Below the pieces are notes generated by a model. It was not told the origin of the DNA and searched no databases. It worked only from the letters and a program-made list of their open reading frames with translations. This document shows, in pieces, positions 10,891 to 21,814 of a stretch of 64,000 nucleotides of DNA. Both the position numbers and the translations under genes were made by a program. This DNA comes from Ferrimicrobium acidiphilum DSM 19497 (GTDB taxonomy: Bacteria > Actinomycetota > Acidimicrobiia > Acidimicrobiales > Acidimicrobiaceae): assembly GCF_000949255.1 (NCBI RefSeq), contig NZ_JXUW01000005.1:1-64000 (forward strand). Direction: 5' to 3'. Each line of letters opens with the position of its first letter. Positions within the stretch are counted from its first letter, which is position 1.

Positions 10891-11430
10891 CTAACGCGGA
10901 GGCACAGGAGGGCTGAACAACTCGAAAAGTAAGAATTTAGAGCGCGGAGGTAGTTGGACGTGCGGGTATGCCTCTTCTAGCGCTGTCATAGCCTCTGCAA
11001 CGTTGTTGAATCCAGTAAGAGGCCAGAGGGCCTTTAGATCATCTTCATCGCCTCCGATCCGGCTGGCGAATGCCTTGAGCAAGAATAGGTATCGCGGAGA
11101 CGCGACTCGAACGGTTAACCATTCACTCTCAAAGAAAACATTAGCTTCAGGGTCATCACCAGGAAGAAACCCCTTGACACCATCATTGAGCCACGACTCC
11201 GGGATTCCACGAGTGTCGGCGATCTCTCTCGCAATTTGGTAGACAATTGTCTTTGGCTCGAAGACCGCATCAAGATCGCGTGTCAGTCGTCGCGGTGAAT
11301 AACACAAGCTCATGGCGGAGCCTCCCACCAAGAATATCTCCGCTTTCGTGTTCCGTGCTTCGAGCGCAACCGACAATTCGTTGAGCAGTTCTACAACTTG
11401 TTCCCGATCGAAATAGATATCTTCAGACAT
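10891..11430 (-). CDS. nucleotidyltransferase-fold protein (DUF6036-like)
   Basis: Predicted member of the nucleotidyltransferase fold. FLVGGSAMSLCY is followed after a short gap by RLTRDLDAVFEP; GGS plus DxD is the fold's nucleotide- and metal-binding signature, as in AbiEii/MenT-type toxins and DUF6036 proteins. A helical C-terminal half follows. I chose ATG 11430 (179 residues) because the upstream gene ends at 11423, giving an 8-bp overlap, and the protein then begins with an acidic helix SEDIYFDREQVVELL. Such proteins often act with a small partner as toxin-antitoxin or abortive-infection modules. That role here is inference from fold and pairing. Confidence 0.72.
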   Translation of the reverse strand: MSEDIYFDREQVVELLNELSVALEARNTKAEIFLVGGSAMSLCYSPRRLTRDLDAVFEPKTIVYQIAREIADTRGIPESWLNDGVKGFLPGDDPEANVFFESEWLTVRVASPRYLFLLKAFASRIGGDEDDLKALWPLTGFNNVAEAMTALEEAYPHVQLPPRSKFLLFELFSPPVPPR

Positions 11431-11800
11431 GGGCCAATGCCGAACGTGGGAGGAATACACCTCGACAGGCAAATGCTGCCGGCGTATCGACAAAGCAGAG
11501 TGGTCTCAGACTCGGCGTATCGGTCGCGAACCACCACTTGTCGTCTACAGATCGCTCGGGGTTAAGAGCCCAGTGTGGGACTTTCATTCCGTGATGGAAG
11601 GCAAGGTGCTCGGCAAGTCCAGCAAGCATCGCATCGAACGCCCTACTCCCGGTGCTGCGCGGCTCGATGTAGAGCATTTCATGCCTGACGTGATCGTTTG
11701 CATCCTCAAAGTCGATACAGAACTGCTTGACACCACGGACAGCTTCAGGCCAGCCGTACCGATCCAACGCCACTACGATGGCACCTGCAAGGTCATCCAT
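11423..11800 (-). CDS. hypothetical partner of the nucleotidyltransferase-fold gene
   Basis: A 125-residue protein I cannot assign to a named family. It begins MDDLAGAIVVALDRYGWPEA and ends PAAFACRGVFLPRSALAHV. It is soluble-looking, with a mixed alpha/beta composition and several Trp residues in the middle (VPHWALNP, DDKWWFATD). The start at ATG 11800 follows a run of eight G residues acting as an unusual Shine-Dalgarno; the longer frame from 11902 has no such support. It overlaps the following nucleotidyltransferase gene by 8 bp, so the two are almost surely co-translated. It could be the cognate antitoxin or a cofactor. Confidence 0.6.
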   Translation of the reverse strand: MDDLAGAIVVALDRYGWPEAVRGVKQFCIDFEDANDHVRHEMLYIEPRSTGSRAFDAMLAGLAEHLAFHHGMKVPHWALNPERSVDDKWWFATDTPSLRPLCFVDTPAAFACRGVFLPRSALAHV

Positions 11801-11805
11801 TGTCA

Positions 11806-11813
11806 CCCCCCCC
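11806..11813 (-). promoter_or_regulatory. G8 homopolymer as Shine-Dalgarno
   Basis: Eight consecutive G residues (minus strand) end 5 bp before the ATG at 11800. They are the only candidate ribosome binding site. A tract this long is prone to slippage, which would change the spacing to the start codon. Confidence 0.45.
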
Positions 11814-11898
11814 AGTTTACCAGGGATGGCCATACCGTAATCCTCACCTGTTCCGACGACGAGCCCAAAACTTGGGCGAAGTACACACCTCCATAAGC

Positions 11899-12040
11899 AC
11901 ATGTGCGCAGTGAACGCCGTGAAATCCTCCCCGCCCTACGGACGGGGGTTCTTAGGCTGCTCACGCAGTTTCGGCTGGTTGACGCTTTACTGGGTCGCTG
12001 TGCTTGTTCGCGTGCGATGTCCCTCCACGTCCTGTGACCG
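11899..12040 (-). ncRNA. putative omega (right-end) RNA of tnpB copy 1
   Basis: In known IS605 elements the guide RNA covers the 3' end of tnpB and the right-end hairpin, with the guide just outside the element. By that rule the scaffold would end at 11919 and the guide would be the next 16-20 bases (minus strand 11918-11899, starting GGCGTTCACTGCG). Boundaries are inferred from where similarity to the other copies stops. Confidence 0.3.
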
Positions 12041-13253
12041 CAAGCCTTGCGGCAATGATATTCTTAGCTGCATTCACGTCTGCGTTATCGGTGTAGCCAC
12101 ACGCTTGGCAACAGAAGATGCTTGGTTCTTGCGGTTCTTCTGTTCTGTGTGACCACACTTAGAACAACGTAGGCTCGTGTATGCGGGGTTGATAGCGATG
12201 ATTTCTACTGGTGTTATGGCATTGATAGCTTTGTCAGTAAGCCGTTGGCGGAACAAGCCCCAGCCCTGTTCAAGAATTGACCTGTTAAGTCCGGACTTTG
12301 CCTTAACGTTCTTGCCAGGCTTGTCTTTCGTTCCTTTGGCTGACTTGGTCATGTTTTTGATCTTTAGTGCCTCTAGTGAGATTAAGTCGTAGTCGCGCAC
12401 CAGATCGGTTGTGGTCTTTTCGATCCAGTCCTTACGTCGGTCTACTTCTTTGGCTGCGAGCTTAGCTATGGCTAGCTTGGTTGCCTTGTAGCGGTTGGAG
12501 CCTTTGACTTGTCTGGCGAGTTTTCTCTGTAAGCGCCTCCTGCGTTGGCGCTGTCCTTTAGTCAGCAACTTCGGTGCTTTCAGGGATTTGCCTTCCGATG
12601 TAGCAACCGTAATCGCGATGCCCATATCTATACCGACGACGGACCCTGTTGATTGGCGCTCCATCTGTGGAGCTAGACGTGTGAAACTAACAAACCATCT
12701 ACCAGAACGATCTGAGGTGACGCGGGCAGATGATGCAGTTTCGATGTCGCTCCATTCGCGAGTGACGCGGAATTTGACCCACCCGCACTTAGGAACGAAT
12801 ACCTGACCCCATTTACGATTAATACGCCTAACAGACAGATCTCGTACAGCAAAACCTTCGTTTACACCAGCCTTGCGCCAAGTCGGACGTCCAAAGTGGT
12901 CTGGTCTCTTCCACCAGTTTTGAAACGCCTGGTTTAGGTCCCGAAGAGCTTGCTGCTGAACTGCGGCGGAACCTTCCTTAAGCCATGTCTCTTTACGAGC
13001 TTCGGCTAGTTCGTGAGCTTGGGTGTGATAGGTAATCTTTTGTGACCGTTCGCGTCTCCATGAGTTGCGCTGTTCGAGAGCGATATTCCATACAGAGCGA
13101 GCATCTGAGCAGTGACGCGCAAGAACAGGCAATTCCTGTTCTCTTGGGTATAGTCGCTCACGAATGCTCATGCTTATAGTGTTGGTCGAGGGTCTAACAG
13201 ACTTGACTTTGGGATGTAATCGAGGTCGCTCGATCCCGCCCTTAGAGACGGGG
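11919..13253 (-). mobile_element. IS605-type element with tnpB only, copy 1
   Basis: Element bounded by two related imperfect hairpins. The left end (13253-13235, minus strand) reads ACCCCGTCTCTAAGGGCGGGA; the right end (about 11950-11919) has CCCCGTCCGTAGGGCGGGG followed by AGGATTTCAC. The second tnpB element at 20462-21814 has matching ends. No tnpA (Y1 transposase) is present, so mobility would depend on a transposase elsewhere. The left end supplies the stop codon of the helicase gene at 13242. Confidence 0.65.
11961..13171 (-). pseudogene. tnpB: TnpB RNA-guided nuclease, frameshifted, copy 1
   Basis: TnpB of the IS605 group, an RNA-guided endonuclease related to Cas12. The start is ATG 13171 (MSIRERLYPREQELPVLA), after 31 codons of spurious upstream frame. 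Visible are VGIDMGIAITVA (RuvC-I Asp), LISLEALKIKNM (RuvC-II Glu) and the first half of the zinc ribbon, CSKCGH. A one-base frameshift near 12125 then breaks the gene. The remaining zinc ribbon FCCQACG and the RuvC-III DNADVNAAKNIIA lie in another frame, ending at 11961. Because the third catalytic Asp is cut off, the product should be inactive unless ribosomes shift frame. The sequence is highly similar to the copy at 20556. Confidence 0.85.
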
Positions 13254-14792
13254 TTTGCGATCATGCTTGGTCAATGTCCAAGGAGTGATAACGTCGACAC
13301 TCTTTGCGGCCGCCATCAACCGTGGGAGCAGTTGTCCGAGAGCACCACATGCGGGATCCTCTACAGTACCGCGCGCAAACAGCACCACCAGTTGCGCAAC
13401 ACCACCGTCAGGTTTTCGCCGAAGGATCCGACCAAGCCGCTGGATGAGCTGACGCTCTGAACCCGATGCGGTCGCGATGATCGCCAAACCTACCTCAGGG
13501 ATGTCGATTCCTTCGTCGAGCAAGCGAGGCGCCACCAATGCCTCGACTTCACCGCGTCCAAACCGCTCCAGCTGCTCGCGTCGGAGCACGTTACCAACTC
13601 CTGAGTGTAAGAATGCAGCCCTCACCCTATGTTGGAGAAGTGTGCTTGCTGCCATCTCGGCCGAAGCGATGCTCTGGCTGAAGACAAGGCAACGCCGGGC
13701 CTCATGAATCAGGGTCGCGAGCTGCCCTAGAACTGCAAACTTGGAGGATAGTCCATCGAGAAAGCTCCTCCGTTGAAACAGTGTTTGTTGTAACTTCAGA
13801 GCGGTGTCTTCGATCCCAGGCGACCTGGTACTATAAGCGCCACCGGTGGCCTTGATGAGTATGGGTAGAAAATCATCCCGTGGGATCGGACGACCAAACT
13901 GGGCCATGAACGCTCGAATCAAGCCTCCGATCACCCCACTGATATCATCATAGATCGTGCGCTCATCATCGGACATGGTGACCGGCACGAGGGAGAGGCG
14001 AAAGGGAGCGACAACCTCATCACGGACAGCCATATCGTGAGAGTAGCGGTAGATCACTGGGCCAAAGTAAGGAACCAAGTAGCGAAGATGCCCACTGTCG
14101 GGTCGTGCGATGGTGGCGCTTATCCCGAGACGATAGCCAAAGCGTTCATCGAGAATCCGAATATTGGCAGGCGTTGCACAGCGGTGAACCTCATCTACAA
14201 CCAAGAGGTCCGCTCCATGACGAACGGCAAAGTTTGCGTCTCTGGCAGAGTTCATCACGGAAACCACGATCTCCGGTTCGCTATAGATCCGTCGAGTCCG
14301 ATCACGTAGGGCCGCAACGACATGTTGCCCTGCAAAAGCCGCCTGGAGTTGGAACAGCCATTGTCCCTCAAGTTCAATGGTTGGAACGACGACGAGGGCG
14401 CGCCCACCTTGAGCGACGATCTCTCGGATCGCGTGCAGCGCCACCAAACTCTTCCCCGCTCCGGTGACGGCTTCGATCAGACCACGCGAACCAGCCGCGT
14501 GCCATGCCTCCAACGCTTCACGCTGCCAACCGAACATCGAGGGGAATCCCTCGAGGTCGAGCGATGCGTCTGCTGGTATCGCATGGGAGCGATGCGGACA
14601 ATGGCCAGTAAGTGACCACGCCTCTGAGCCAACTGCGCAGGGTTCAAACAGATCCTCATCCCCAAGCACCGCGAGGAGCGCATCGTGCGTGGGTTGCGCT
14701 GACACGAGTGATCTAGAGAGCGCCTCACCAAGTTCATCGATGGTACAGCATCCCTCGCTAGCCAGGATCAGTGCGACGACATCCGAGAGCAT
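13242..14792 (-). CDS. SF2 DEVH-box helicase of the ATPase/helicase operon
   Basis: DNA/RNA helicase of superfamily 2, resembling XPB-like and BREX BrxHI-type enzymes. After an N-terminal region of about 85 residues, possibly a winged helix (ASEGCCTIDELGEALS), come motif I EAVTGAGKS (residues 108-115), motif II VVDEVHR (DEVH at 200-203), motif III GISATIARP, then motif VI QLIQRLGRILRRK. The middle includes a roughly 100-residue insertion between the two RecA lobes. It is the last gene of a four-gene operon and starts 10 bp after the upstream ATPase stop. Its last residues and TAA stop come from the left end of an IS605-type element, so the native C-terminus was replaced or trimmed slightly. 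Motifs are intact, so activity is likely. Confidence 0.88.
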   Translation of the reverse strand: MLSDVVALILASEGCCTIDELGEALSRSLVSAQPTHDALLAVLGDEDLFEPCAVGSEAWSLTGHCPHRSHAIPADASLDLEGFPSMFGWQREALEAWHAAGSRGLIEAVTGAGKSLVALHAIREIVAQGGRALVVVPTIELEGQWLFQLQAAFAGQHVVAALRDRTRRIYSEPEIVVSVMNSARDANFAVRHGADLLVVDEVHRCATPANIRILDERFGYRLGISATIARPDSGHLRYLVPYFGPVIYRYSHDMAVRDEVVAPFRLSLVPVTMSDDERTIYDDISGVIGGLIRAFMAQFGRPIPRDDFLPILIKATGGAYSTRSPGIEDTALKLQQTLFQRRSFLDGLSSKFAVLGQLATLIHEARRCLVFSQSIASAEMAASTLLQHRVRAAFLHSGVGNVLRREQLERFGRGEVEALVAPRLLDEGIDIPEVGLAIIATASGSERQLIQRLGRILRRKPDGGVAQLVVLFARGTVEDPACGALGQLLPRLMAAAKSVDVITPWTLTKHDRKPRL

Positions 14793-14802
14793 GCGATCTC
14801 AC

Positions 14803-16086
14803 TCACCAAGGCGAGGTGGGTTCGTCCTCCGCTTGAATCGACTCACGAAGATCAACCTTTACGTCCGTTGACAGCGTGAAAGGGGTATAGCTTGGATCGA
14901 GATAGATCAGATCCCACTCGTTGATCCAAGATCGCACATACTGACGCATCCTGTTGGATGGGAGACGTTCGATACCGTGCACATCGGGTGGATCCCATTG
15001 GAGCGCCTCCCCGTGCAATGCTTTGATCGCACGGTAGGTGACATCAAGCTCTTCATTCGTCGGGGGTTCCAGCCGTATCTGATGATCACGCAGGAGTTCC
15101 ATGCCTCGTTTTGCCAACTCGAGGAGTTGGGGCGAACCCTGTGCCATTGCCGCCAGGCGCACCGGAATTTTCTCCAGATCATTCCGCGCAACCAAGACCT
15201 CGCTCTCGAAGTCGTCTACGGTTGTGAGCACGGTGGTTACGGGAGCCTGAGGATCGTGGCTCGCCCCCTGCAACCATTGAGCGAGCTCTGCATACGCTCG
15301 ACCACGTTGGAGTAGAGAGTACCTTCCGATCAACTCCACCTCATCGAGAAGAATGACCCAACCCGAGTAGCCTGCCGCCCCGATGAGTCGCGAGACGAAT
15401 GACAATCGATCTCGACATAGAACATCTTCTCGCGTCGAGCGGATGTTGTACTCGCTCAACCAACCGGCTTCACGCAGTCGTCGACGGATCTCTGCGACAG
15501 CGAATTGATCGCCAGCCCAGAACTGGAGAATCTTATCGACGAACTCCTCATCACCACCTGCAAACTGCTCAAACATTCGCAGAGTCGACGTCAAGCGATG
15601 ATCAACAAAGCTCCCGTCCGTCGCCAGCCATCGGTATAGCTGGGCAAAGCGGAGCGAGTCTGTTTGGAGTCCAGTAGCAATCTCGGTGATCGCCGACCCC
15701 GGTCTGCCGGGTACGCGCGCATCATTTATCGCAGCCCGATAGACAGCTGCGAGGTTGTAGAGGGGCGTCTCCTTAGAGATGACGACTCGTGACACAACAA
15801 AGTTCTGCTGAAGGGCTCGCTGGGCTAGGTACTCCAGGAGGTGGCTCTTGCCACTGCCAAAGCCACCCGAGATGAGCAGGCCCGCCGAGGCGCGATCCGT
15901 CGGCTCCCAGTTCGCCCGCCGAGCTGTCAACTCCAGATTTGCTAGGTACTTGTCTACCACCTGTGCCTGCATCGTGCCCAGATGGAGCACGCTCTCTCGA
16001 TTCGGCACTCCTGCGCGCAGCGCCTCCAACGCACGCAGCGCTGTCACAGTCCTCCGTTGTACATCACCTGGATCCAGAAGCGTCAT
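14803..16086 (-). CDS. BREX-type ATP-binding protein (BrxD/DUF2791-like), intact ATPase
   Basis: P-loop ATPase of the AAA+/STAND-like group seen in BREX systems. Walker A is GGFGSGKSH (residues 74-82) and Walker B is GWVILLDEVE (Asp248, Glu249). A possible sensor region follows in TTVLTTVDDFESE. The N-terminal 60 residues are helical; the C-terminal 120 residues look like a helical lid plus a tail ending in basic and acidic patches (RMRQYVRSWINEWD). At 427 residues it fits BrxD. It overlaps the upstream degenerate paralogue by 4 bp (ATGA). BrxD is known from BREX type 2, usually beside the helicase BrxHI, as here; the pglW, X, Y and Z genes are absent nearby. Function as phage defence or DNA processing is inference. 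Confidence 0.8.
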   Translation of the reverse strand: MTLLDPGDVQRRTVTALRALEALRAGVPNRESVLHLGTMQAQVVDKYLANLELTARRANWEPTDRASAGLLISGGFGSGKSHLLEYLAQRALQQNFVVSRVVISKETPLYNLAAVYRAAINDARVPGRPGSAITEIATGLQTDSLRFAQLYRWLATDGSFVDHRLTSTLRMFEQFAGGDEEFVDKILQFWAGDQFAVAEIRRRLREAGWLSEYNIRSTREDVLCRDRLSFVSRLIGAAGYSGWVILLDEVELIGRYSLLQRGRAYAELAQWLQGASHDPQAPVTTVLTTVDDFESEVLVARNDLEKIPVRLAAMAQGSPQLLELAKRGMELLRDHQIRLEPPTNEELDVTYRAIKALHGEALQWDPPDVHGIERLPSNRMRQYVRSWINEWDLIYLDPSYTPFTLSTDVKVDLRESIQAEDEPTSPW

Positions 16087-17078
16087 GACACATCTCCGTT
16101 TACTATTGAGAAAGTCGAAAACTCCTCGTGAGCTTCTCCCAGTCGAATCAATGCACCGAATGGATTGTCACGAGTCTCATCTCGGATCTCATCGTAGATT
16201 CTGAGCTTGAGGGCCTGGTAGAGATCCAAGCCGCGCGTGCGATCACTGACGAACTCCGGCGGCAGACAGACGATCGTCGCCATGTGCCCAAACTCATCGG
16301 TGTTGTCGATGAGTTGACGCAAGGATTCGTAAGCGTCGACGATCGCGGCCTTCGTATACCTGAGCGATAGATCAGTCGCGTCACGGAACCGCGGCAGGAA
16401 GAACTGCTGGAGATCGAGGGTGAGCAACAGCCCAGAGTAACCATTCTTGATCAACCACTGAACCAACGAGAACAACATAGATCGAGCATTCGCTCGGGTG
16501 ATGCGGCGAAAGATTCGCGTATTACGCAACAGTGAGATCTGGCTCAGTTCGCCTTGGAGCCACGCCCTTATCGCATCTGCCTCAGCGTCGGTTACCTGTC
16601 CAGTCTTGAACTCAAACTGGCACAGACGGATCATGGCAATCCGGAACTCCTGCACCATCGCATAGTCCTTGAAGATATCTGACTGAAAACCACGGTTGAC
16701 ATCGCGGAGCAGTTCGCGAGCATCATACCCATAGTGCTGGGCGAGCTCTGCGAGAGAGATACGTTGGTTCTCGGCGGGTACGCCATATCCCAACGAGTGG
16801 CAGACCCGATTCACCGTCGTCCTAGCGAGCTGATCCCAGTCAAGGGTGCGGGCGATCGCAGAGAAGAGCTGGTCTATCATCTGTACTTTGGTTTTCGCTG
16901 CATCGATAGTGACGCTCACCATGCCAGCCTGTCGTGCCATCTCCCCCAGAGACGCCTCGATCCGACCGAGGCTCGTCGGTTCACCGATGCAGAACTTGAC
17001 GGTGGCGCCACCCTCAGGGATGTAGCTCCGGAAGTAATGAGTCTGAAGAAAATCGCAGTAGCGATCAGTATCAATCAT
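16083..17078 (-). CDS. degenerate paralogue of the BREX-type ATPase (predicted pseudo-ATPase)
   Basis: A 331-residue protein whose pattern parallels the downstream ATPase. GGATVKFCIGEPTSLGRIEA (from residue 23) sits where the Walker A should be but lacks the GK[ST] lysine. GYSGLLLTLDLQQFF (from residue 213) matches the Walker B segment GYSGWVILLDEVELI but lacks the catalytic Glu (Asp222 then Leu). Downstream blocks also correspond (AYESLRQLIDNTDEFGHMAT). The most economical reading is a duplicated ATPase that lost hydrolysis and became a structural or regulatory subunit of a hetero-oligomer. I set the start at ATG 17078, 8 bp inside the upstream gene; the longer frame from 17123 lies in that gene's coding sequence. 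Confidence 0.72.
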   Translation of the reverse strand: MIDTDRYCDFLQTHYFRSYIPEGGATVKFCIGEPTSLGRIEASLGEMARQAGMVSVTIDAAKTKVQMIDQLFSAIARTLDWDQLARTTVNRVCHSLGYGVPAENQRISLAELAQHYGYDARELLRDVNRGFQSDIFKDYAMVQEFRIAMIRLCQFEFKTGQVTDAEADAIRAWLQGELSQISLLRNTRIFRRITRANARSMLFSLVQWLIKNGYSGLLLTLDLQQFFLPRFRDATDLSLRYTKAAIVDAYESLRQLIDNTDEFGHMATIVCLPPEFVSDRTRGLDLYQALKLRIYDEIRDETRDNPFGALIRLGEAHEEFSTFSIVNGDVS

Positions 17079-17865
17079 TGGCGTCCTCGAATGCAATCGT
17101 CGAATAGATCTTGACCTGGCCACCCTTTGCTACCGTCTCCAACAGACCACCACTACGGGTCGACGCACTTGCGGCAAAGCGTAGAATTCGACCATCTTTT
17201 GTCTCGATGCAACCACTCTGATCGAGGAGGTAGACATCACGCGCAAACTCTTGTTTCGAGTAGGCACGCGAACCATTGAGCAGCGTGAGGATTGAGTACA
17301 GGTGGATCAGTTTGACATGAGAACCCGGGCGCCCTCCCCGATGGGCTATCCACAAATCGTATACCGAGGCGAGTGCCTCGAGGAAAGGCTCTGGTCGGAA
17401 ACGCGAACGCCGCTGACTATTGGCGCGCAGCTGTGCGACGACTCGGCTGGGGCGAACCTCGCGTACCCGCTTGCGATCGATGGTGATCGCCAGATCCCCT
17501 GGGAGTATTTGGAGTACCGAAGGGTAGCACAAGAGTCTCGAATCGGACTCGACCATCGGGAGATGGGCAGCAGCGGCCAACTCCATGAGCTCCCGTTGAT
17601 AACCGCCAGACTCCATCCACGATGAAAGATCGTAATCGGCGCTCTTTAGCAGCTCACTGGTCATGCGTTGGAGGTCAGTCAGTCGTTCATGAACAGCAGT
17701 GATCGCCGCGATAAGTTCGCCCTGGTTGCCACTTGCACTCGCTCGTTGAGCCTTCCGAGCCGCAGCCAAAGCTGTCTGGGTCTCCTTTACCATGGTCGCG
17801 ATCTCGCGATCGAGGTGGTCAAGTTGACTTTCATAGCCAGTTTCCATCTGCTCTGCTTCAATCAC
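17071..17865 (-). CDS. coiled-coil protein, first gene of the ATPase/helicase operon
   Basis: A 264-residue protein with no family I can name. Residues 1-75 are a likely coiled coil (YESQLDHLDREIATMVKETQ and onward, rich in Glu, Lys, Gln and Ala). A middle region (85-160) is mixed. The C-terminal 110 residues (YDLWIAHRGGRPG, IHLYSILTLLNGSRAYSKQEF, LDQSGCIETKDGRILRFA) read like a winged-helix or similar small alpha/beta domain, possibly for DNA or partner binding. The start is GTG 17865; ATG 17847 is an alternative. It overlaps the pseudo-ATPase gene by 8 bp. Position and coupling suggest it is an adaptor or sensor of the same complex. Confidence 0.7.
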   Translation of the reverse strand: MIEAEQMETGYESQLDHLDREIATMVKETQTALAAARKAQRASASGNQGELIAAITAVHERLTDLQRMTSELLKSADYDLSSWMESGGYQRELMELAAAAHLPMVESDSRLLCYPSVLQILPGDLAITIDRKRVREVRPSRVVAQLRANSQRRSRFRPEPFLEALASVYDLWIAHRGGRPGSHVKLIHLYSILTLLNGSRAYSKQEFARDVYLLDQSGCIETKDGRILRFAASASTRSGGLLETVAKGGQVKIYSTIAFEDAND

Positions 17866-18259
17866 GCTTTCCGCCCTTCTCCATAGCTCCGCCAGAGACC
17901 AACTGGGTGGTACCCACGACCAACCCTGTCAGATGGTCAGCTGATCCCTCTTTCGGATCCGCACACCCATCGCTAGCTGCCACCTTAGTCAATGATCCCA
18001 GTCGGACCCATTCGCTGCGCTCTAGGCTATCACCAAGCCTGCATTCACTCCTGCATTGGAGAGCTTTCGTAAGCCATGGCAGATTGTGCGCAGCCTCGGC
18101 ACCAAGTAGTCCTCGTAAGCAAAGGCGTGAAGCTTCCTGGGTTTTGCGGAGACCCCGGGACGCTTCAATGTCTACCACTTGACAATTCGTCCAAGTGTGC
18201 ACGAGTATTGCGTCCCGACTAATGGGTAGTTTCAATCGCATGAGACGACTACCAACCAT
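17858..18259 (-). CDS. possible upstream ORF of the ATPase/helicase operon
   Basis: A 133-codon open frame that ends 8 bp inside the next gene, the overlap pattern used throughout this operon. The product has no recognisable motif and a slightly unusual composition (Cys- and Ser-rich, patches such as GLRKTQEASRLCLRGLLG). The overlap argues for it; the lack of a clear ribosome binding site and of any family resemblance argues against. It may be leftover coding sequence of a decayed gene. Confidence 0.25.
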   Translation of the reverse strand: MVGSRLMRLKLPISRDAILVHTWTNCQVVDIEASRGLRKTQEASRLCLRGLLGAEAAHNLPWLTKALQCRSECRLGDSLERSEWVRLGSLTKVAASDGCADPKEGSADHLTGLVVGTTQLVSGGAMEKGGKRD

Positions 18260-20461: not shown

Positions 20462-21814
20462 CCTCGTCCGTGAGGGCGGGGATGGATAGGCGCATACTGA
20501 GCTGGATATCTCCACATCAGTCAAAACTGTCAGACCCTCAAGCGATAATATAAGTATGAGTATTCGTGAGCGCCTGTACCCAGGAGAACAGGAACTACCT
20601 GTTCTTGCGCGTCACTCGCTATGTATGGAATATCGCTCTCGAACAGCGCAATTTGCGGAGACGCGAGCGATTACAAAAGATCACCTACAACACCCAAGCT
20701 CACGAACTCTCCGAAGCTCGCAAGGAAAGCTGGCTCAAGGAAGGTTCTGCCGCAGTCCAACAACAGGCTCTTCGAGACCTAAACCAAGCGTTTCAAAACT
20801 GGTGTAACAGACCAGACCACTTTGGACGTCCGACTTGGCACAAGGCTGGCATCAATGAAGGCTTTGCTGTACGAGATCTGTCTGTTAGACGCATTAACCG
20901 TAAATGGGGTCAGGTATTCGTCCCTAAGTGCGGGTGGGTCAAATTTCGCGTCACTCGTGAATGGAGTGACATAGAAACAGCATCGTCTGCCAGAGTCACT
21001 CTAGATCGTTCTGGCAGATGGTTCGTTAGTTTCACACGTCTAGCTCCACAGATGGAGCGCAAGTCAACTGGCGCTATTGTCGGTATCGACATGGGTGTCA
21101 CTCATACGGTGGCTACGTCTAACGGTGAGTTTCTCGATATGCCAGAACTTCTCACCAAAGGAGAGCATCAACGCAAGAGACGCTTACAGAGGAGGCTCGC
21201 CAGGCAAGTCAAAGGCTCCAACCGCTACAAGGCAACCAAGCTAGCCATAGCTAAGCTCGCAGCCAAAGAAGTAGACCGACGTAAAGACTGGATCGAGTGG
21301 ACCACAACCGATCTGGTGCGCGACTATGACTTGATCTCACTAGAGACACTAAAGATTAAAAACATGACCAAGTCAGCCAAAGGAACCAAAGACAAGCCTG
21401 GCAAGAACGTTAAGGCAAAGTCCGGACTTAACAGGTCAATTCTCGAACAGGGCTGGGGCTTGTTCTGCCAACGGCTTACTGACAAGGCTACCAATGCTGT
21501 AACACCAGTAGAAATCATCGCTATCAATCCCGCATACACGAGCCTGCATTGTTCTGAGTGTGGTTACACGGACAAGAAGAATCGCGATAGTCAAGCTCGC
21601 TTCCACTGTCTATCGCGTGGCTATACGGATAACGCAGACGTGAATGCGGCCAAGAATATCATTGCCGCAGGGCTTGTGGTCCAAGAGCGTGGAGGACAAT
21701 CGCACATTGTGTCTACCAAGACACAACACAGCGACCCAGCGAAGCGCACCACCACTCCTAAAGCTGCGTAAGCAGCTTGGGAAGCCCCGTCTGTAAGGTC
21801 GGGGAGGATGTCAC
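20462..21814 (+). mobile_element. IS605-type element with tnpB only, copy 2
   Basis: The left-end hairpin is CCTCGTCCGTGAGGGCGGGGA (20462-20482). The right-end hairpin is CCCCGTCTGTAAGGTCGGGG (21785-21804), followed by AGGATGTCAC ending at 21814. Ends and coding sequence resemble copy 1 (11919-13253) in the opposite orientation. No tnpA. Confidence 0.65.
20556..21771 (+). pseudogene. tnpB: TnpB RNA-guided nuclease, N-terminal frameshift, copy 2
   Basis: Second copy of the IS605-group tnpB. The true start is ATG 20556 (MSIRERLYPGEQELPVLARH). Compared with copy 1 an 11-bp segment (TGCTCAGATGC) is missing at about 20612, so the frame shifts and the rest, from YVWNIALEQRN on, is read in another frame that stays open to 21771. 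RuvC-I (VGIDMGVTHTVA), RuvC-II (LISLETLKIKNM) and RuvC-III (DNADVNAAKNIIA) are present in this part. In the zinc ribbon the first pair is intact (CSECG), but the second reads CLSRG, so one zinc-binding Cys is lost. A GTG at 20566 in the main frame could give a product with an abnormal N-terminus. Likely inactive. Confidence 0.85.

Follow-up and report, generated by a model that had tools for sequence, protein, structure and literature searches.

The window analysed here is a stretch of 64,000 nucleotides from Ferrimicrobium acidiphilum DSM 19497 (contig NZ_JXUW01000005.1, positions 1 to 64,000). Its minus strand carries a four-gene operon coding for a helical-hairpin protein (CC), an inactive AAA+ paralogue (ATPd), a catalytic AAA+ ATPase (ATPa) and a superfamily 2 (SF2) helicase (HEL), in this order. 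The coordinates of the open reading frames (ORFs) agree with a preliminary description of this DNA, and so do the junctions: CC and ATPd overlap by 8 bp, ATPd and ATPa overlap by 4 bp, and a gap of 10 bp separates ATPa from HEL. The features are listed below.

17071..17865, minus strand: CC, 264 amino acids (aa); N-terminal antiparallel helical hairpin and folded C-terminal domain
16083..17078, minus strand: ATPd, inactive BrxC/D-family AAA+ paralogue; no P-loop, Walker B Glu or C-terminal lid
16962..16985, minus strand: pseudo-Walker A of ATPd, GEPTSLGR, residues 47–54 (GTG numbering), placed by alignment
16200..16202, minus strand: Arg308 of ATPd (GTG numbering), candidate trans arginine finger, placed by alignment
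14803..16086, minus strand: ATPa, catalytic BrxC/D-family AAA+ ATPase with a PF10923 match
15844..15867, minus strand: Walker A of ATPa, GGFGSGKS, residues 74–81
15340..15345, minus strand: Walker B Asp-Glu of ATPa (LLDEVE), residues 248–249
13242..14792, minus strand: HEL, XPB/PbeA-like SF2 translocase/helicase; 85-aa N-terminal extension, no nuclease domain

The start of ATPd is probably the ATG at 17078 and not the upstream GTG at 17123 of the mechanical ORF list, because homologues begin at that methionine. The ratio of nonsynonymous to synonymous substitution rates (dN/dS) was 0.02–0.04 for ATPa, 0.09–0.13 for ATPd, 0.09–0.14 for CC and 0.12 for HEL; the values taken against locus L016 are rough, since dS there approaches or exceeds saturation. 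Purifying selection thus acts on each of the four genes, and the reading frames are not chance structure.

The live and the dead ATPase

Both middle genes match the Pfam family BrxC_BrxD (PF10923, cut-off 22.2 bits), ATPa at 5e-22 (78.8 bits) and ATPd at 9e-13 (48.4 bits). PADLOC gave weak matches to BrxD (1e-16 for ATPa, 8e-11 for ATPd) and to SngB (3e-10 and 6e-6, respectively). The two proteins can be aligned with each other by profile–profile comparison (E 2e-4), with GYSGLLLTLD of ATPd pairing with GYSGWVILLDE of ATPa. In the tree, ATPa and ATPd form one clade each (100/100) and lie apart from BrxD and SngB; the long branch of ATPd leaves its placement relative to the other ATPases unsettled. 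The internal topologies of the two clades match, which means that the dead copy arose early and has been inherited together with the live one. Matches, alignment and tree thus bear out the paralogues, one live and one dead, of the preliminary description and place both in the BrxC/D family.

Judged by its motifs, ATPa has a complete ATP site. The P-loop Lys and Gly and the Walker B Glu are present in all 18 aligned ATPa homologues, and the Walker A motif GGFGSGKS occurs once in the window (one match in a degenerate search, 0 expected). The same three residues are missing in 17 of 17 aligned ATPd homologues, so that the loss of the P-loop and the catalytic Glu first noticed in the window extends beyond it; by this alignment, the dead state is a family-wide trait. 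The Walker B Asp is retained by all 17 in the joint alignment. Moreover, ATPd ends right after beta-5, and the C-terminal lid is therefore gone.

One column ahead of beta-5 in the joint alignment holds Arg in 28 of 28 sequences outside the ATPa clade (17/17 ATPd, 6/6 BrxD, 3/3 SngB and 2/2 ATPases of helix-turn-helix (HTH) systems). The distribution in the ATPa homologues is R11/K6/Y1. The invariant Arg of ATPd probably sits at the arginine-finger position.

An AlphaFold2 model of ATPd had a mean pLDDT of 83. Its best structural matches were archaeal Orc2/Cdc6 proteins (Z 10.8–10.2; for 1w5t, Z 10.8, rmsd 3.2 and 167 aligned), and BrxC (9zdx) reached Z 9.2. These Z scores come from VIA re-alignment; Foldseek on the same model gave no significant E-value. 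An AAA+ fold of ORC/Cdc6 type is predicted for ATPd, with this single model as the structural basis. The pairing of ATPa with ATPd fits the hetero-oligomeric loader suggested earlier for the two ATPases.

A conserved trio with variable helicases

Homologues were gathered from whole genomes and GTDB contigs. CC, ATPd and ATPa were found in fixed order on one strand in 33 loci including the window, mostly overlapping or tens of bases apart. The gene after this trio is HEL in 21 loci and an SNF2 helicase in four (L025, L046, L120 and L122). Seven loci have no adjacent helicase (L019, L020, L022, L023, L028, L029 and L045), and in L121 the gene is unreadable at the contig end. The conserved unit is the obligate trio CC–ATPd–ATPa, and the helicase is variable. 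The initial view of the four genes as one obligate unit does not hold, since the helicase is swapped or absent while the trio remains constant. Contig ends cut L018, L024, L027 and L108, and L032 is a decayed copy with CC missing and ATPa frameshifted. L024 (3–864) is a second ATPa copy, ended by the contig edge, in Acidithrix ferrooxidans PY-F3, which has a complete trio on another contig (L029).

On an ATPa tree of 34 loci, the helicase types cluster. HEL needs 2 changes, compared with 9.4 for shuffled labels, and one HEL clade plus the SNF2 branches amount to 4 label changes, compared with 10.3. This fits a single gain of HEL with one later loss in L019/L029, and SNF2 on deeper branches.

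HEL has ResIII/DEAD and Helicase_C domains (Pfam). Its best PADLOC match was PbeA (3e-59), and profile comparison with the Protein Data Bank (PDB) placed it closest to XPBII/Rad25 (6e-54). TIGR04095 matched at 6e-40. BrxHI reached 4e-9 and SngC 9e-8, the latter over the helicase C domain only; the proposed BrxHI type is not borne out by these values. The alignment with PbeA starts at position 253 and covers the helicase part only, and the HKD motif was absent from the 11 HEL homologues examined. Therefore, no nuclease is attached to HEL.

HEL was present in 10 of 14 genomes carrying the trio, nearly always adjoining it (the sole separate copy is G086:C549), and nowhere in the other four (G009, G028, G138 and G174). 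A second HEL relative in G086 (L078, 9822–11591, minus strand; 3.6e-130) is without the N-terminal 80 residues and has no adjoining trio. The SNF2 protein of L120 has a 250-aa N-terminal extension; neither this extension nor the ORF of 216 aa with which L121 ends gave a match.

The model of CC (pLDDT 89) shows an antiparallel helical hairpin at residues 11–76 and then a folded beta/helix C-terminal domain, possibly a winged helix. The gene had been described as coding for a coiled-coil protein. The helical hairpin agrees with this, but a plain coiled coil does not, since a folded C-terminal domain is modelled. CC has no family in Pfam, PADLOC, NCBIfam or PHROGs, and it is predicted to be a DNA- or partner-binding subunit. 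Twelve HEL-clade loci (L038, L039, L107, L110–L117 and L119) encode a further protein of about 450–590 aa, called protein X here, upstream of CC. It is not part of the window operon. Some of its members weakly match sigma-70 region 4 or an HTH domain.

Hosts of the trio belong to the window's order, to other Actinomycetota and to the Alphaproteobacteria. The frequency was 24 of 397 genomes in the window's order and 2 of 385 in the alphaproteobacterial class, and a CC-based search of a phylum sample gave 3 of 396. Within the genus, three of seven congeneric genomes have the operon and four do not. The alphaproteobacterial L122 nests with L120 and L121 of the window's order (100/99), which means cross-phylum transfer.

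The genes smc and ftsY are adjacent in G001–G005. In the window they are 28 kb apart, with the operon in between; a conserved junction has been opened here by insertion or rearrangement. The junction on the ftsY side is also present in G006 (L079). In G005, the operon is on contig C7 and the smc–ftsY pair on contig C53. Differing sites in congeners and the cross-phylum transfer confirm that the module is mobile, as had been supposed. No relative was found in viral contigs or phage records, and a phage origin was rejected on these grounds. Plasmids held no ATPd and only two distant ATPase matches, one of them annotated BrxD.

Besides the operon, the smc–ftsY gap (9900–37853) holds two TnpB copies and genes for transketolase, RuBisCO, a CbbX-like ATPase and fructose-bisphosphate aldolase. 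The TnpB genes lie on both sides of the operon (12074–13264, minus strand; 20566–21771, plus strand). The 3′ end of HEL lies within the first, whose C-terminal zinc ribbon appears frameshifted relative to the second. G006 has a 438-aa TnpB at the matching place (L079). An overlapping pair at 10891–11902 (minus strand), a DUF6036/AbiEii-like nucleotidyltransferase and a 159-aa partner, is conserved in G006 (L079) and is possibly toxin–antitoxin-like. A 133-aa ORF upstream of CC (17858–18259) had no family match and was not counted as part of the operon.

Proposed mechanism and competing explanations

We read the module as a split AAA+ machine of ORC/Cdc6 type that would act on DNA and recruit an SF2 motor, most likely against invading DNA; we put the probability of this reading at roughly 0.55. 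The split-ATPase architecture by itself stands considerably above one half. Defence is the likeliest role, at slightly better than even, given the kinship with the ATPases of BREX and Shango, the mobility, the patchiness and a few neighbourhoods.

In the proposed sequence of events, ATPd would dock by ATPa and give an arginine finger in trans, at the position suggested by the alignment. ATPa would fire only within the mixed ATPa–ATPd complex. CC, plus the HTH-like protein X where present, would place the complex on DNA. The complex may then recruit or license the SF2 double-strand DNA motor, by analogy with the proposal for BrxD and BrxHI. Finally, the module would act on invading DNA through translocation or by interfering with replication and not by cutting; a non-cutting action is proposed because no nuclease or methylase belongs to the module.

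The trio of L046 is adjoined by defence genes, namely mREase_IV (type IV restriction enzyme, 5e-274) and PDC-S11 (1e-127). Weaker defence neighbours are PDC-S01 near L038 and PDC-S27 near L040. When 93 ORFs from the flanks were scanned in bulk with PADLOC, most of the models listed were SNF2-related helicases, and the scan was repeated on chosen proteins.

Several points weigh against a split defence machine. Most trio flanks are metabolic or housekeeping genes and not defence islands. With seven loci lacking an adjacent helicase, helicase loading is not the whole story. The alignment of ATPa and ATPd near the putative finger is uncertain at such divergence. Lastly, a PDB fold search with CC returned only generic helical hairpins and no match for the C-terminal fold.

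The flanks also bear on a second explanation, a host machine for DNA repair, replication restart or transcription-associated work, in which an ORC-like loader and an XPB-like or SNF2 motor would remodel DNA with no part in defence. The many trio loci amid ordinary genes and the trio-only loci suit such a machine, as do the nearness of HEL to XPBII/Rad25 among PDB entries and the ORC/Cdc6 fold, which is typical of loaders. However, the patchy spread (24/397, 3/396 and 2/385), the absence from four of seven congeners, the cross-phylum transfer and the decayed copy in L032 would all be rare for a housekeeping machine, and we consider a host function possible but unlikely.

Another explanation is that the module serves a mobile element, in transposition target selection or plasmid replication. 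The TnpB copies flanking the window operon, a tRNA-Arg near each of L038 and L040 (with a relaxase in the first case and IS607-type genes in the second), and a TnsC-like AAA+ protein among the structural matches of ATPd all point this way. Across the loci, though, genes for transposase, integrase or replication do not recur next to the trio, viral and phage records hold no relatives, and plasmids give distant BrxD-type matches only, which makes this explanation improbable.

Descent from BREX type 2 or Shango, with the module working inside that system, would explain why both ATPases match BrxD and SngB and why the logic of an ATPase plus a helicase is shared. Yet the ATPases form a clade apart from BrxD and SngB, the helicase comes from a different SF2 family, TerB is lacking, PglZ is not required, and the match to the BrxD equivalog (61.7 bits) is far under the cut-off of 350 bits; such a derivation is quite improbable. 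That the module provides restriction for a phosphorothioate or Pbe-like system, as the PbeA helicase module and the TIGR04095 match of HEL might hint, is hardly credible with no HKD nuclease, no DndC in any of the 14 trio genomes searched and no PADLOC match to PbeC or PbeD among the operon proteins.

If the loci form a defence family defined by the ATPase pair, this pair rather than the helicase would be central to systems of this kind. A BrxD-like ATPase and an SF2 helicase recur in BREX type 2 and in Shango, and helicase loading is so far only a proposed role of the ATPase. Here the live/dead split is natural, with a probable catalytic Arg left on the dead half, and the question of that role reduces to two mutants, R308A in ATPd and K80A in ATPa. 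Because XPB/PbeA-like and SNF2 helicases replace each other on one ATPase core, the motor seems to be an output that can be exchanged.

Comparison with known systems

Named systems were compared using PADLOC-DB version 2023. No named system in it matches all genes; newer defence databases were outside the search, and later naming is possible. The set is also not confined to pglX/pglZ loci, so neither of these two outcomes, which the preliminary description had listed as speaking against a new system, was found. The third outcome on that list, two ATPases that do not superpose in predicted structure, did not occur either, the modelling having covered the ATPd half of the comparison. PglZ occurs neither in the window operon nor in its flanks. 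Among the 14 trio genomes, only G138 had a strong PglZ match, on a contig other than that of the trio, and the remaining 13 had none or partial matches (~60 of 179 positions, 20–26 bits, cut-off 25). PglZ is thus not required, in keeping with the lack of pgl genes nearby that was noted first. CC had no TerB match, and its profile is without similarity to SngA. Membership in BREX type 2, Shango or Pbe was rejected, as each fails at least one tested defining feature. We hold it an even chance that the loci represent an unnamed defence family, defined by CC and two ORC/Cdc6-like ATPases that always occur together, one live and one without a P-loop, with plug-in SF2 motors (XPB/PbeA-like or SNF2) and an optional sigma/HTH-like targeting protein.

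BrxD of BREX type 2 is an ORC-Cdc6 ATPase in a tight dyad with BrxHI, for which helicase loading has been proposed only (PMC12839542). The present operon likewise has an ATPase of the ORC/Cdc6-clade BrxC/D group beside an SF2 helicase. In contrast to BREX type 2, its ATPase comes as two subunits, one live and one dead, its motor is of XPB/PbeA or SNF2 type, and BrxC, PglX, PglZ and PglW are not required. A BREX-like locus from the same taxonomic order (L041, 6010–17034) holds BrxC-like, PglZ-like, BrxD and DUF262/GmrSD-like proteins and a BrxHI-type helicase.

Shango (SngABC) also combines an accessory protein, a BrxD-like ATPase and an SF2 helicase with no recognised nuclease (PMC10250203). 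It differs from the present module, which has no TerB, an extra dead ATPase, another helicase family and a separate ATPase clade. Two further compact sets pair an HTH_17 protein with a BrxD-like ATPase (L070, 4752–9675; L071, 6647–10300), and L070 also has an SF2 helicase. They match SngB at no better than about 1e-60 to 1e-56 and have no TerB; they may be a further variant, as yet without a name, of the Shango/BREX-2 dyad.

In the PbeABCD and CxC ABC-ATPase systems, PbeA has the same SF2 helicase module as HEL, and Pbe is reported to block replication without cleavage (PMC6459918, PMC10853773). Here, HEL is without the HKD nuclease, and there is no ABC ATPase or DndE, nor DndC in the genomes.

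Clamp loaders are AAA+ hetero-oligomers with inactive subunits, and their arginine fingers are supplied in trans (PMC3331839). They belong to another AAA+ clade and serve a clamp, which the present module does not have. Conflict operons with a second Orc/Cdc6 copy that has an intact Walker A but a disrupted Walker B also code for a KAP NTPase (PMC10853773). In the present module, the degenerate copy has no lid and neither Walker A nor the Walker B Glu, and the partners are CC and an SF2 motor. With a degenerate copy beside an active one, these paired Orc/Cdc6 operons are the nearest described precedent (PMC10853773).

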